Below, in pieces: positions 3,077 through 9,725 of a stretch of 12,407 nucleotides of DNA; the first letter of the stretch is position 1; every line of letters begins with the position of its first letter. The position numbers and the translations under genes were made by a program. A model generated the notes under the pieces. The model did not search any database, was not told the DNA's origin, and saw only the letters and a list, made by a program, of their open reading frames with translations. Source of the DNA: Burkholderiales bacterium RIFCSPHIGHO2_12_FULL_61_11 (GTDB lineage Bacteria > Pseudomonadota > Gammaproteobacteria > Burkholderiales > Burkholderiaceae_C); the NCBI GenBank assembly GCA_001770785.1, contig MERZ01000106.1:2767-15173 (forward strand), given 5' to 3'.

Positions 3077-3835
3077 TCAATCGACGCCGTAGCGTTCGCG
3101 GTAAGCCAGCACAGACTGGTAATGTGTTTGCAAGAGCAGTGCACCAGCGGCATCGACTGCCGACGCGCTGCTTTGCAAAGACAGATACTGCAGCAAGTCG
3201 GTCAGGCGCGCAATCGCGCAAACCTGCAGACCCAACTGTGTGCTGACATACTGCACAGCGCTGTAGTTCACGTCAAGCCCATTCTCGGTGGCCTTTTCCT
3301 GCCGGTCCAGCGCAATCACCACGGCATGGGGCGTGGCCCCAGCGGCCCGGATGATGGCAATCGATTCGCGCACCGCCGTGCCGGCCGACATCACGTCATC
3401 GACAATCAGCACCCGGCCTTTCACCGGTGCACCGACCAGCGTGCCGCCCTCGCCATGGTCCTTGGCTTCCTTGCGGTTGTAGGCAAATGGCAGGTTGCGC
3501 CCCAGCCGCGCCAGCTCGATGGCCAACGCCGTGGCCAGCGGAATGCCCTTGTAGGCCGGGCCAAAAATCATGTCAAACTGCAAGCCGCTGCGCTGCTCCT
3601 CGGCCAGCAGGCAGCGCGCATAAAATTGCGCCAGCCGGCCCAGCTTGGCACCGTCATCAAACAGGCCCGCGTTGAAAAAATACGGGCTGATGCGGCCAGC
3701 CTTGGTTTTGAACTGGCCAAAACGCAGCACCCCCGATTCAACGGCAAACTGCACGAATTGCTGGGCCAGCGCGGGATCGGGGGATGCCCCGGAAGTCGTC
3801 TGGCCCCTGTTGTCTGCTTGCCCTGCCTCACTCAT
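3077..3835 (-). CDS. pyrE: Orotate phosphoribosyltransferase
   Basis: PyrE converts orotate and PRPP to orotidine 5'-monophosphate, the fifth step of de novo pyrimidine synthesis, in the cytoplasm. The 252-residue protein has FNAGLFDDGAKL (54-65), FGPAYKGIPLA (91-101), the flexible catalytic-loop region YNRKEAKDHGEGG (119-131), and the PRPP-binding motif VLIVDDVMSAGTA (142-154). It is longer than the roughly 213-residue enterobacterial enzyme, with a poorly conserved N-terminal leader of about 20 residues and a C-terminal extension from about 215. I recall similar extensions in Burkholderiales. ATG 3835 is chosen for AAGGAA 6 nt upstream; the frame stays open further upstream, but that part is antisense to the exonuclease gene. 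The start lies only 10 bp from the divergent exonuclease start, so its promoter must lie inside that gene's 5' coding region. Confidence 0.96.
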   Translation of the reverse strand: MSEAGQADNRGQTTSGASPDPALAQQFVQFAVESGVLRFGQFKTKAGRISPYFFNAGLFDDGAKLGRLAQFYARCLLAEEQRSGLQFDMIFGPAYKGIPLATALAIELARLGRNLPFAYNRKEAKDHGEGGTLVGAPVKGRVLIVDDVMSAGTAVRESIAIIRAAGATPHAVVIALDRQEKATENGLDVNYSAVQYVSTQLGLQVCAIARLTDLLQYLSLQSSASAVDAAGALLLQTHYQSVLAYRERYGVD

Positions 3836-3836
3836 T

Positions 3837-3845
3837 GGAAATTCC
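3837..3845. promoter_or_regulatory. Shared 9-bp palindrome carrying Shine-Dalgarno elements of two divergent genes
   Basis: The bases between the starts of pyrE and the exonuclease gene include GGAAATTCC, a palindrome around one central base. Read on the minus strand, its GGAA (preceded by AA) is the pyrE ribosome binding site; read on the plus strand, its GGAA lies 5 nt before TTG 3846. One short element thus serves translation of two divergent genes. No convincing -10/-35 pair was found in the 10-bp gap, as expected for promoters displaced into the opposite genes. Confidence 0.45.
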
Positions 3846-4250
3846 TTGTTTAAATTAACCAGCCTCAACCTCAACGGTATCCGTTCCGCCGCCAGCAAAG
3901 GCCTGCAGGACTGGGTGGCCCAGTCCATGCCGGATTGTATTTGCGTGCAGGAACTCAAGGCGCAAGCCTTTGACATGAGCGGCCGCTTCGAGGAAATCGC
4001 CGGTCTCAAAGGTTATTTTCATTTTGCCGAAAAAAAAGGCTATTCCGGCGTCGGCATCTATACGCGTCACGAGCCCAGCGACGTGATCGTGGGCTATGGC
4101 TCGACGGAATTTGACACCGAGGGCCGCTACATTGAACTGCGTTTTGACCGCCCTGGCCGACAGCAAAGCCCCAAGCTGTCCATCATCAGCGGCTACTTCC
4201 CCAGCGGCTCGTCGGGCGAGGAGCGGCAGGCCGCCAAGTTCCGCTTATGA
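3846..4250 (+). pseudogene. xth: Exonuclease III, N-terminal fragment (reading frame broken by duplication)
   Basis: Exonuclease III is the major AP endonuclease and 3' repair exonuclease of base-excision repair. This ORF of 134 codons begins at TTG 3846 (MFKLTSLNLNGIRSA). It holds the N-terminal active-site elements of the EEP fold: the Asn of LNLNG (residue 8, E. coli Asn7), Glu36 in CVQELK (E. coli Glu34, metal ligand), and Tyr117 in SGYFPSG (E. coli Tyr109). After KFR the frame enters the 19-bp spacer, gains one Leu and stops at TGA 4248-4250. It therefore lacks the Asp/Asn of GDINIAH, the later Asp and the SDH motif, and cannot be active alone. Removing one repeat unit plus spacer (299 bp) would restore a continuous protein of about 286 residues, so the ancestral gene was intact. 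GGAA lies 5 nt upstream of TTG. Confidence 0.85.
3967..4246 (+). repeat. 280-bp direct repeat, copy 1, inside the exonuclease III gene
   Basis: By manual comparison this copy is identical to 4266-4545 at every base, including a run of eight A residues. The offset is 299 bp, which is not a multiple of three, so the duplication shifts the frame. It encodes the stretch from FDMSGRFEEI to RQAAKFR. No target-site duplication, transposase or terminal inverted repeat flanks it. Confidence 0.97.
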
Positions 4251-4265
4251 TGGACAGCTTGGGGC
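4168..4265. repeat. Inverted repeat: spacer between the two 280-bp copies is a reverse-complement copy of repeat sequence
   Basis: The 19-bp spacer 4247-4265 is the exact reverse complement of 4168-4186. Allowing one mismatch at 4246, the pairing extends to 22 of 23 bases (4243-4265 with 4168-4190). The same 19 bases recur at 4467-4485 in copy 2, so the spacer can pair on either side. The mRNA could form a 19-23 bp stem with a loop of about 52 nt that buries the ATG at 4247. Such an inverted, templated filler at a duplication junction is a hallmark of template switching during DNA synthesis, in the cell or in an amplification step. Confidence 0.93.
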
Positions 4266-5005
4266 CCTTTGACATGAGCGGCCGCTTCGAGGAAATCGCC
4301 GGTCTCAAAGGTTATTTTCATTTTGCCGAAAAAAAAGGCTATTCCGGCGTCGGCATCTATACGCGTCACGAGCCCAGCGACGTGATCGTGGGCTATGGCT
4401 CGACGGAATTTGACACCGAGGGCCGCTACATTGAACTGCGTTTTGACCGCCCTGGCCGACAGCAAAGCCCCAAGCTGTCCATCATCAGCGGCTACTTCCC
4501 CAGCGGCTCGTCGGGCGAGGAGCGGCAGGCCGCCAAGTTCCGCTTTCTGGCCGAGTTCTACCCGCACCTGGCGGCCCTGAAGGAAACCCGCGACTTCGTG
4601 CTGTGCGGCGACATCAACATCGCGCACCAGGAAATCGATCTGAAAAACTTCAAGGGCAATAAAAAGAACAGCGGCTTTTTGCCCGAGGAGCGGGCCTGGA
4701 TGACCGAACTGCTGCGCGATGCCGAGCTGGTCAACGAAGCCGCTGACGAATTAACCCAGAGCACCGGCGTCAGGGGTGGCGGCATGGTCGATGTCTACCG
4801 AGCGCTGCACCCCGCGACGACCGGCGACGCCTACACCTGGTGGAGCAACCGCGGCCAGGCCTATGCCAAAAACGTCGGCTGGCGACTGGACTACCACCTC
4901 GCGACGCCCGCGGCGGCGGCGACTGCCCGCTCCGCCGCGATTTACAAAGACCAGCGTTTCAGCGACCACGCGCCCTTGACGATCGAGTACGACTGGGACC
5001 TTTGA
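4247..5005 (+). pseudogene. xth: Exonuclease III, C-terminal fragment with duplicated middle segment
   Basis: This frame of 252 codons starts at ATG 4247, overlapping the upstream fragment's stop in ATGA. The first seven residues (MMDSLGP) come from the inverted spacer and repeat junction; residues 8-99 repeat the upstream ORF. It carries Tyr83 (SGYFPSG), Asp122 and Asn124 in GDINIAH, FLPEERAWM (144-152), the metal/active-site Asp215 in WRLDYHLA, and Asp240-His241 in SDHAPL, so the C-terminal half of the active site is complete. It lacks the LNLNG Asn and the VQE Glu. It also has about 20 extra residues (about 161-180, a VNEAADELTQ ... RGGGM segment) before VDVYRALHP compared with the usual family form. 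Reinitiation at ATGA is possible, but no Shine-Dalgarno precedes ATG 4247. Function would need association of both fragments; more likely the gene is inactive or the break is artefactual. Confidence 0.8.
4266..4545 (+). repeat. 280-bp direct repeat, copy 2, inside the exonuclease III gene
   Basis: Exact second copy of 3967-4246. At its left edge it joins the 19-bp inverted spacer; at its right edge it continues into the unique 3' part of the gene (FLAEFYPHL). Perfect identity at all codon positions means the event is very recent or was introduced during sequencing or assembly. Confidence 0.97.
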
Positions 5006-6741: not shown

Positions 6742-6990
6742 GTGTTCCTCAGTGATCTGAACGAGCAATTTACGCGCAGCACATTCAGCCGCGGGAAGTT
6801 CCGCTTCGGGCCGACTGCCGACATCGAGAGGAAAAATGTGGATTTTTTTGATGGCACGACCATCACCTGGCAACCCCCTGGTATCGCAGCCACCGCCGGC
6901 CCGGCCGTGAATGATCGGAAGTTGGTGGGCGCCATGGAACTCACCAGCAACGACGGCCCCAAGTTCAGCCGGAGCGCCTGCACAAAAAAA
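6742..6990 (+). pseudogene. Coding-like fragment between the ABC operon and the CigR-like gene
   Basis: This stretch of more than 300 bp between two minus-strand genes has no complete gene. One plus-strand frame is open through it and uses mostly G or C at third codon positions, like the real genes nearby. It reads FLSDLNEQF, GKFRFGPTADIERKN, VDFFDGTTITWQPPG, LVGAMELTSNDGPKF. The possible GTG start at 6742 has no Shine-Dalgarno. There is no stop before the frame runs into the terminator hairpin at 6992 and the antisense of the next gene, so a normal 3' end is lacking. It may be a remnant of a deleted gene. I do not recognise the family, and it may be chance. Confidence 0.22.
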
Positions 6991-7028
6991 TACCGCCCTG
7001 CGGCTGTCCTCGGGCAGCGCAGGGCGGT
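6982..7028 (-). terminator. Rho-independent terminator of the CigR/RcnB-like gene
   Basis: ACCGCCCTGC (6992-7001) pairs perfectly with GCAGGGCGGT (7019-7028). After one bulged base the stem continues with GCTG/CAGC around an 8-nt loop. On the minus strand the hairpin is followed by A and then seven T residues (complement of 6984-6990). It begins 9 bp past the stop of the gene at 7038, so it is a textbook intrinsic terminator for that gene. Confidence 0.92.
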
Positions 7029-7037
7029 GGGGCCCGA

Positions 7038-7582: not shown

Positions 7583-7730
7583 TTTTAGAGTAACTTCACG
7601 GAGCACCTCATTCATAAAATATTACCCGGCAAGAACACCGCAACGGGATGAAAGATGAAGTTACCAACGGAACTCATCGACCCATGTAGGACGATGCCAC
7701 GATGACTTGTCTCAATATGCGGATGTCGCT
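7583..7730 (-). repeat. Diverged copy of the DUF4382 gene leader upstream of the CigR-like gene
   Basis: These 148 bp align without any gap to 9438-9585 at a constant offset of 1855. By hand count about 113 of 148 bases match (about 76%). The best conserved part is 7621-7650, with 28 of 30 bases matching. The position matching the lipoprotein ATG (9454) is GTG at 7599. The frame reads Met-Lys-Leu-Leu and then TAA where the lipoprotein has CAA. Homology stops a few codons into the coding region, so only the leader and very start of the gene were copied or kept. The copy ends about 40 bp from the CigR-like start codon and probably supplies its 5' untranslated region. Confidence 0.85.
7588..7604 (-). 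other. Four-codon vestigial leader frame upstream of the CigR-like gene
   Basis: Within the leader copy, GAGGTG lies 4 nt before GTG 7599, followed by AAG, TTA, CTC and a TAA stop. The arrangement matches the lipoprotein gene's AAGGTG-CTCC-ATG site, so ribosomes could initiate here and stop at once, 44 nt before the CigR-like start. It may be a mere relic or could influence downstream translation. Confidence 0.4.
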
Positions 7731-7966
7731 GGACTGCGCAGAAGATACTTTGGTAAGCCTTACGCTCTCACCCAAGTGGTGAAATTTTTCAAGACCAGAA
7801 AAGTGGGCAGTCATGCGGCCTCATTGACTGAAGCAAGCGTCCCACTGAATACGAAGGGACTCCCCACTTTCAGGTAACGACATCAAGTACCAATATTGGT
7901 TTTACGGAAGTTGCGCTTCACTTCGTTCGTTGTGATCAACTTACGGCGGAACTTACACCCGCAGGA
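7731..7966. other. Intergenic stretch without a recognisable gene
   Basis: About 236 bp between the leader copy and the tandem hairpins. The sequence is poorer in GC than the genes around it. A plus-strand frame is open from about 7659 to TAA 7875-7877, but it has no ATG, and its first part lies in the diverged leader copy, so it is probably not coding. No inverted repeat longer than about 6 bp, tRNA or transposase motif was noticed. Confidence 0.5.
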
Positions 7967-8260: not shown

Positions 8261-9454
8261 TCAGGGTATCAACGTGAAATTAACTGCAGTCTGGTTAGCG
8301 GTAGAGATATCCACCGATGGCATGGACGCTGTCGTATAACCATTTGCCGAAGCCTCAAGTTTATATTTCCCCGTACCTGGCGTCGTGTCTGTCTTCGTTA
8401 CAAACACTAGAGGCAAGGTCGCACTATATGAAACAAGCTGCGGTGCAACGGTCGGCAAACTCAGGGAATATGCTCCGGTTGTCACGTCGGCGCCCTGATA
8501 TTTGATGGACACGGTAGGGCCAGTGGCAAAACTTTGTTTTGCCGTCACGTAAGCGGCTTCGGTTGTGCTGAGCGGATTCAGGATAGCCGTGCCACTGATG
8601 ATGCGGTTTGCGGTAGCAGCCGCTTGCAGGTTGATCGGCTCGACACTGGAACTGACAACGACTGTGCTGGTGGTGCTGGCGACCGGCACCGCAGCGATGA
8701 CAGCAGTGGCGCTGTTGTCGGCCGTGATGACTACGTCGTAATTACCCGGGGCAAGACGGGCCAGGTAAAACTCGCCGGTTGTGGCATTGGGGGCAGTAGA
8801 ACCGAAGATCGTTCCGTTCTGTTGCGCCGTCACCAACACATGGTCAGCCAGCAACGACGTGTTGATGAAACCGTTGATGCCATTGAGGACGGTTGGGACG
8901 ACCTTGATGACAGGCTTGAGCGCGTAAACGCCATTCCCTCTTTTCACGATCGATTTGCACGCATCGAAGTCCAGCACCAGATCGACCCGCTGTCCGGACG
9001 CGACGTCGAACTGGTTGATCAGCTTGAGGCCGCTTTGCATTGCGCTTGGCGTTTCAAGAGATATTTCCGTCTTTGTGGTGTCGTCGGTCAGGACTACCGA
9101 GTTGGCCCCAGCGTTGGCATCAAGCACCAGGCGCAATTGCGTGTAATGACCTGCTGCAAGCGGTGTCTCTCCTAACTGTTCCAGAGCGCCGTTGGTTAGG
9201 TCGAGGAGATTGATTTTACGTGCGGGATTCAAAATAATTTTGGCCCAGCCCTCGTCTTTTTCGCCTGCGGATGCGCTTTGATGCACACGGACTTCATTGA
9301 CCGTGACATTGACCTCGTCATAGCCGCAAGACGGCGCATCAGTCATTGCCACACTCAGCGTGCCCGGTGCCGGCGTACTGCCACCACCGCAGGCCGCGAG
9401 GCCCGCCACCAGAAGACCACCCAGGGCCAGCTTCAGATTTTGGAGTAACTTCAT
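8261..9454 (-). CDS. DUF4382 domain-containing lipoprotein
   Basis: This 397-residue envelope lipoprotein starts at ATG 9454 with AAGG 6 nt upstream. The signal peptide MKLLQNLKLALGGLLVAGLA ends in the lipobox LAAC with Cys22, followed by GGGSTPAPG, so the mature protein is lipidated at the Cys. Residues about 31-190 fit DUF4382: SVAMTDAPSCGYDEVNVTVN near the start, KINLLDLTNGALEQLGETPL in the middle, and LKPVIKVVP near 190. The rest (about 195-397) is Thr/Ser/Ala-rich and looks like two beta-sandwich repeats of the carboxypeptidase-regulatory or Ig-like kind (GEFYLARLAPGNYDVVITAD; GKYKLEASANGYTTASMP). No enzymatic motif is seen. The family's function is unknown; a surface or structural role is a guess. 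The frame is open upstream to 9781, but that part lies in the leader shared with 7583-7730, where it is not open. Confidence 0.9.
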   Translation of the reverse strand: MKLLQNLKLALGGLLVAGLAACGGGSTPAPGTLSVAMTDAPSCGYDEVNVTVNEVRVHQSASAGEKDEGWAKIILNPARKINLLDLTNGALEQLGETPLAAGHYTQLRLVLDANAGANSVVLTDDTTKTEISLETPSAMQSGLKLINQFDVASGQRVDLVLDFDACKSIVKRGNGVYALKPVIKVVPTVLNGINGFINTSLLADHVLVTAQQNGTIFGSTAPNATTGEFYLARLAPGNYDVVITADNSATAVIAAVPVASTTSTVVVSSSVEPINLQAAATANRIISGTAILNPLSTTEAAYVTAKQSFATGPTVSIKYQGADVTTGAYSLSLPTVAPQLVSYSATLPLVFVTKTDTTPGTGKYKLEASANGYTTASMPSVDISTANQTAVNFTLIP

Positions 9455-9585
9455 GGAGCACCTTATTCGAACAATATTGCCCGGCACGAACACCGCAACG
9501 GGATGAAGTGCGAGCTTACTTGCGGCACTCATCGCGCCACGTAGGACAATTCCACGATTGCCTGTCCGGATACGTGGCCGCCACT
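9438..9585 (-). promoter_or_regulatory. Leader region of the DUF4382 gene, partly duplicated at 7583-7730
   Basis: This stretch holds the first codons, the Shine-Dalgarno and about 130 bp of upstream leader. The copy at 7583-7730 aligns ungapped, with strongest conservation at 9476-9505, within about 50 nt upstream of the start codon. Conservation in a part that is not coding in the other copy suggests a regulatory or mRNA-level element. No -10/-35 pair could be chosen with confidence. Confidence 0.6.
9536..9578 (-). promoter_or_regulatory. Bulged inverted repeat in the DUF4382 gene leader
   Basis: GCCACGTA (9536-9543) pairs with TACGTGGC (9571-9578). Inside it GGACA (9544-9548) pairs with TGTCC (9563-9567), leaving a 3-nt bulge and a 14-nt loop: 13 base pairs in all. 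It lies about 80-125 nt upstream of the lipoprotein start. It could be an mRNA structure or an operator. The outer arm is not preserved in the 7583-7730 copy. Confidence 0.4.
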
Positions 9586-9725
9586 GGGGCGGCGTCCGGT
9601 ACCGAAGAAACGTGAGTGAAAGTAAGCAATGAAACGGAGGTGGCGCATGGCAGCATTCCGTCGGATTGCGACCACACCTCGAATGACCGGAGTAGGCCGC
9701 CATGTACTTTGAACGGGCTATAACC
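9586..9725. other. Spacer between the response regulator and the DUF4382 leader
   Basis: This 140-bp stretch follows the stop of the response regulator gene. No GC-rich hairpin with a T tract was seen, so termination of the kinase operon could not be placed. A promoter for the DUF4382 gene probably lies here or in the leader, but no consensus match was convincing. Confidence 0.35.

Follow-up and report, generated by a model that had tools for sequence, protein, structure and literature searches.

The question raised by this locus is whether an exact 280-bp tandem repeat, which splits the xth (exonuclease III) gene of a Burkholderiales genome into two reading frames, records a mutation in the organism or was made on the way to the assembled sequence. 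The window, i.e. the whole stretch of DNA analyzed here (12,407 nucleotides), lies within C106, a contig of 15,173 bp. The genome to which C106 belongs measures 3.77 Mb, is split over 416 contigs, and is 93.8% complete and 2.8% contaminated; its nearest named relatives are Polaromonas. The fragmentation, the contamination, and the many Polaromonas metagenome-assembled genomes nearby suggest that the genome is probably metagenome-derived. C106 is interrupted by two N runs, one of 14 bases and one of 6 bases that lies immediately upstream of the window. The window opens on what looks like the end of a putative gatA, and profile searches identify ordinary neighbors, namely gatB, a DUF4124 gene, pyrE, xth, and an ABC-2 transporter pair; further genes include an RcnB-like gene (just under the Pfam cut-off), a DUF4382 gene, and a sensor kinase. 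The features at the xth site are as follows, in window coordinates.

3846-4250, plus strand: first xth piece, TTG start, 134 codons, TGA stop, covering TIGR00633 positions 2-123
3967-4246, plus strand: copy 1 of the 280-bp repeat, inside xth, 100% identical to 4266-4545
4168-4186, minus strand: template of the spacer (repeat and fold-back scans), present too in copy 2 at 4467-4485
4241-4246, plus strand: turn point, CCGCT facing AGCGG at 4188-4192, then mismatch T4246 (sequence comparison)
4247-4265, plus strand: 19-bp spacer, reverse complement of 4168-4186 (repeat and fold-back scans), a putative fold-back contig tip
4247-5005, plus strand: second xth piece, 252 aa, ATG start overlapping the TGA, covering TIGR00633 positions 49-254
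4265-4266, no strand: second junction, without microhomology and without an N run (sequence, and comparison beyond the tip)
4266-4545, plus strand: copy 2 of the 280-bp repeat, single copy in relatives, putative start of the next, overlapping contig

The split gene was assigned to xth, family TIGR00633, by profile search, and the frame shift described in a first-pass annotation of this DNA is borne out, with piece 1 stopping at the TGA at 4248-4250 and a new frame running from the ATG at 4247 to 5005. Piece 2 scores 179 bits against TIGR00633 and passes the curated cut-off of 99.05, piece 1 scores 87.4 and falls below it, and a single polypeptide spanning the 255 positions of the family is absent. 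The best solved structures by sequence are, for both pieces, the exodeoxyribonucleases 2jc5 and 4b5h. Protein lengths among the best 120 of 8000 scored are 255-292 aa, and six proteins inspected from these 120 run uninterrupted through both junctions. At 4247-4250, the TGA that closes piece 1 and the ATG that opens piece 2 overlap as ATGA, a point missed in the earlier annotation; such an overlap is usually taken as translational coupling, and here it is likely an accident of the chimera proposed below. The apparent TTG start of xth has a parallel in the nearest protein (P0001), which likewise has L as its first residue. Upstream, at 3833-3848, xth (plus strand) faces away from pyrE (minus strand), with likely start codons ~10 bases apart, so that each promoter would fall inside the other gene. 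The same genome has a further full-length TIGR00633 gene (L115, C364:4191-4976), at a locus that also carries what we take to be an acyl-CoA synthetase-like frame.

A window-wide repeat scan recovered the direct repeat as had been claimed, i.e. 280 nt at 100% identity between 3967-4246 and 4266-4545 with a spacing of 299, and the 19-nt spacer is indeed the exact reverse complement of its template (7013-7031 and 6934-6952, respectively, in C106 coordinates). The CCGCT reported at the first junction is also present: 4241-4245 pairs with AGCGG by five matches, after which come one mismatch (T4246 versus G) and the 19 exact positions, and the arms extended over this mismatch reach 25 nt at 96% complementarity (4168-4192 and 4241-4265). 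From base composition, the expected number of chance inverted matches of one given 19-mer within 600 positions is 4.6e-9, a figure to be read as a lower bound because exact internal inverted repeats of 19-20 bases occur elsewhere in the genome (L128 and L136). Taken together, the sequences of the spacer and of the 280-bp repeat indicate that the structure is not due to chance and has a cause. The second junction (4265/4266), which the first-pass annotation had passed over, shows zero shared bases on either side, and microhomology at both junctions, which is the criterion for MMBIR/FoSTeS, was not found, the first junction having five bases plus a mismatch and the second none. There is no N run at 4265/4266, and the spacer is thus internal to the contig. 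That mobile-element ends are lacking, as had been stated, holds in so far as the window-wide scan shows no further repeat at the site; a transposon or integron origin was set aside on the same scan.

The sister-locus comparison that had been suggested as a check found the duplication in 0 of the 109 relative loci examined, with one copy in each. The repeat unit is single-copy in 29/29 unnamed and 80/80 named loci, copies being counted as hits of at least 100 bp on either strand, the named loci being 80 retained out of 563, and the two sets overlapping in genomes; this rules out an ancestral or shared duplication. The flanks are spaced by 280 bp in 27/29 unnamed and 33/80 named loci, by 268 bp in 1 and 32, and by other distances in 1 and 15. 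In the 80 named loci retained out of 563, the match to xth piece 2 starts at residue 8 or 9, past the residues encoded by the spacer. A 34-base query with the spacer matched 1 of the 109 loci (L008), over 25 bases and on the strand opposite its xth, i.e. the match is to the template. Across the genus, at least one TIGR00633 match is present in 86 of 87 genomes, and the junction pattern (up to 3 mismatches) occurs in 1 of the 87, which is the genome under study, and was not found in the 86 others, some of which are incomplete.

Fold-back structures also occur at other broken ends of this assembly. The sample comprised 140 of the 416 contigs, of which 44 were wholly masked and 96 readable, with 1,061,090 bases and 140 N runs or gaps, the assembly being scaffolded. 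Piece ends were defined as contig ends or N-gap edges; pieces had to measure at least 150 bases, and ends created by cutting stretches of >20 kb were excluded. A tip was defined as a terminal stretch of at least 15 bases that repeats nearby sequence exactly in inverted orientation, with the arm reaching the last base. Such tips are present at 7 of 450 piece ends versus 2 of 5000 random interior points, a comparison that applies to this assembly and in which the control rate is taken as counted; in the first 80 contigs alone, the counts are 3/232 and 0/2000. The seven tips, all at contig ends or N-gap edges, are listed below with their turns or loops.

L129:7146-7278: fold-back tip, microhomology of five bases, one mismatch, then the exact inverted copy
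L141:13718-13811: fold-back tip, microhomology of three bases, one mismatch, then the exact inverted copy
L229:8030-8163: fold-back tip, no matches adjoining the arm
L240:1-89: fold-back tip, two matches, then a mismatch
L235 at 10213: fold-back tip, four matches, then two mismatches
L170:1: fold-back tip, loop of 4
L231:1: fold-back tip, loop of 3

Arm and loop lengths of the seven are 45/43, 41/52, 38/18, 34/21, 16/26, 15/4, and 15/3, and that of the xth spacer is 19/60. The tips of L170 and L231 might be natural short hairpins, and without them, 5 of the 450 piece ends remain. For the L141 tip (1-38), 18/30 relatives give one long match starting at query base 37-53; for the L229 tip (274-314), 15/25 relatives match, with the match ending at base 267-292; and for the L240 tip (1-34), 23/25 relatives match, starting at base 29-43. 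The remaining relatives of these three gave short matches or none. For each of the three, the tip additionally finds matches on the other strand of some relatives, and these are to its template. The alignments indicate that the folded bases, absent from relatives, are foreign in three of the four long tips (L141, L229, and L240), whereas L129, the longest, gave 2 weak matches among 30 relatives, too few to judge. Reading frames at the L129 and L141 tips run into the inverted sequence; these presumably encode a molybdopterin-type oxidoreductase and a pilus/secretion-type ATPase, respectively. Internal inverted repeats of 17-39 bases (L128, L136, L144, L151, L179, and L222) were not scored as tips, and the longer imperfect ones (L144 and L151) were treated as natural. 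The exact 19-20-base inverted repeats at L128:13864-14105 and L136:6736-6897, with loops of 204 and 122, are apparently intergenic and may be either natural or of the same chimeric origin.

One overlap between adjoining contigs also looks unmerged. The end of the left contig recurs inside the right contig, ~70-150 bases in, at 2 of the 140 N gaps (L143 and L180), and a direct repeat of at least 14 bases lies across 6 of the 140, far from the gap edge in 4 of these 6. At L180:9713-9815, the left end reappears at bases 72-105 of its right neighbor with 32/34 bases identical, as would be expected of such an overlap. L143 (2476-2484, 55 nt) was rejected as another such overlap, its contig being rich in short repeats.

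From these data, we put at roughly 85% the probability that the 280-base duplication in xth is not a mutation but a fold-back chimera at a contig tip combined with an unmerged 280-bp contig overlap. In the first step, a chimeric read would have formed during library preparation or amplification, the 3' end of a strand folding back at CCGCT/AGCGG and being extended by 19 bases, and the assembler would have taken this chimeric end as a contig end (A-R-S), halting the contig there. In the second step, the next contig, which would start 280 bp upstream (R-B), may have been placed end to end with the first, doubling the 280 bp because the 19 false bases masked the true overlap. We infer the order of the two steps, the joining itself, a contig end hidden at 4265/4266, and an absence of reads spanning that position. 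In a one-step variant, likewise an artefact and included in the same estimate, a doubly chimeric read would loop the assembly graph. The results support such a two-step artefact, which would explain where the spacer and its turn come from, why the second junction is blunt, why the copies are perfectly identical, and why the structure is absent elsewhere. Like the tips, the xth spacer repeats upstream sequence nearby, exactly and in inverted orientation, and ends abruptly, and its junction is absent from relatives. The first-pass annotation had offered two readings, a template-switch mutation or a chimera from amplification or assembly. The chimera is favored because there are tips at other broken ends, three of the four long ones being lacking in relatives, and because the second junction looks blunt; the mutation is without positive support beyond the sequence.

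Some observations nevertheless count against the artefact. All seven tips sit at contig ends or N gaps, whereas the xth spacer is internal without an N run, and an extra joining step is therefore needed. This step would be rare, since a search of the 96 readable contigs for exact direct repeats of at least 100 bp within 5 kb gave no second case, the next longest exact runs measuring 87; another duplicated overlap with an inverted spacer was not found in these contigs either. An overlap of 280 bp exceeds what de Bruijn contigs usually share, which also argues against an artefact, and the turn signature seen at xth (microhomology, one mismatch, exact inverted copy) recurs in just 2/7 tips (L129 and L141).

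A real event in some form is on balance unlikely. It could be a template-switch mutation of very recent date that has become the main allele and inactivates xth, in which the nascent strand would leave at 4246, copy 4186 to 4168 off the other strand, return to 3967, and re-copy 280 bp. This event and the artefact predict identical letters: set against the single-copy relatives, the three segments fit the four-point geometry (L-1, 2-3 inverted, 4-R), and the perfect identity of the copies fits a recent event. The loss of xth could be made bearable by the second full-length xth-like gene on C364. However, the fold-back tips are an error of the same assembly, the second junction is without microhomology, the junction is in 0/86 other genus genomes (some incomplete), and an allele assembled from a metagenome would need to predominate in the population; we thus regard such a mutation as distinctly improbable. 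Very unlikely is the more specific proposal that a real double template switch would have created, in one event, an xth split into two overlapping coupled (ATGA) frames that are both translated. A real duplication leaving a working split exonuclease III made of two translationally coupled pieces is hardly credible: the ATGA overlap fits it, and the pieces jointly cover TIGR00633, overlapping by the repeated segment, but neither alone spans the family, the duplication is in 0/109 relative loci, and the objections to the template-switch mutation apply equally. That the assembler merged a minor variant or second strain carrying a real duplication into the main contig is likewise hardly credible, for although metagenome assemblies mix strains, the copies are without a single base difference and a real mutation would be required as well.

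Published systems offer likenesses on both sides. In multiple displacement amplification, a freed 3' end primes nearby at short complementarity, 406/475 chimeras being inverted and >70% showing 2-21 nt of complementarity (PMC1855051). The likeness would lie in a 3' end priming on nearby sequence, although the xth case would need two switches if it arose in a single read. In the PDSM model, library reads made of a strand plus its own inverted complement result from end repair, with mismatched bases at the pairing site (PMC10908179); that model concerns human capture libraries, in which natural inverted repeats or palindromes pair, whereas the xth turn has five bases plus a mismatch. In many short template switches, point 4 precedes point 1 (PMC7954356), and xth shares with the four-point switch the 1-2-3-4 geometry, the inverted 2-3, and point 4 before point 1; those events, on the other hand, are great ape genome differences, whereas the xth event has nothing in common with a relative. 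In starving E. coli, two inverted switches lead to a direct duplication with an inverted piece and junction microhomology, the embedded inverted duplications measuring 5.2-42.6 kb with 3-30 bp of microhomology (PMC3161906), whereas the xth piece is 19 bp and one of its junctions has none. None of the titles and abstract openings searched dealt with metagenome assemblies in which fold-back contig tips are combined with unmerged overlaps.

The main value of this locus is as a warning that a draft genome can mimic a textbook complex rearrangement that is explicable by its own assembly errors. Before template-switch mutations or pseudogenes are claimed from such a genome, a cheap check is to examine the remaining contig ends of its assembly for fold-back tips. 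Elsewhere in the window, a 150-bp stretch is repeated at 77% identity (7583-7732 and 9438-9587), one copy lying just upstream of the RcnB-like gene (minus strand) and the other near the likely start of the DUF4382 gene (minus strand). A third, partial copy of this stretch is present at C143:6329-6395 (67 bp, 81%), and the two copies in the window are possibly a shared control region.
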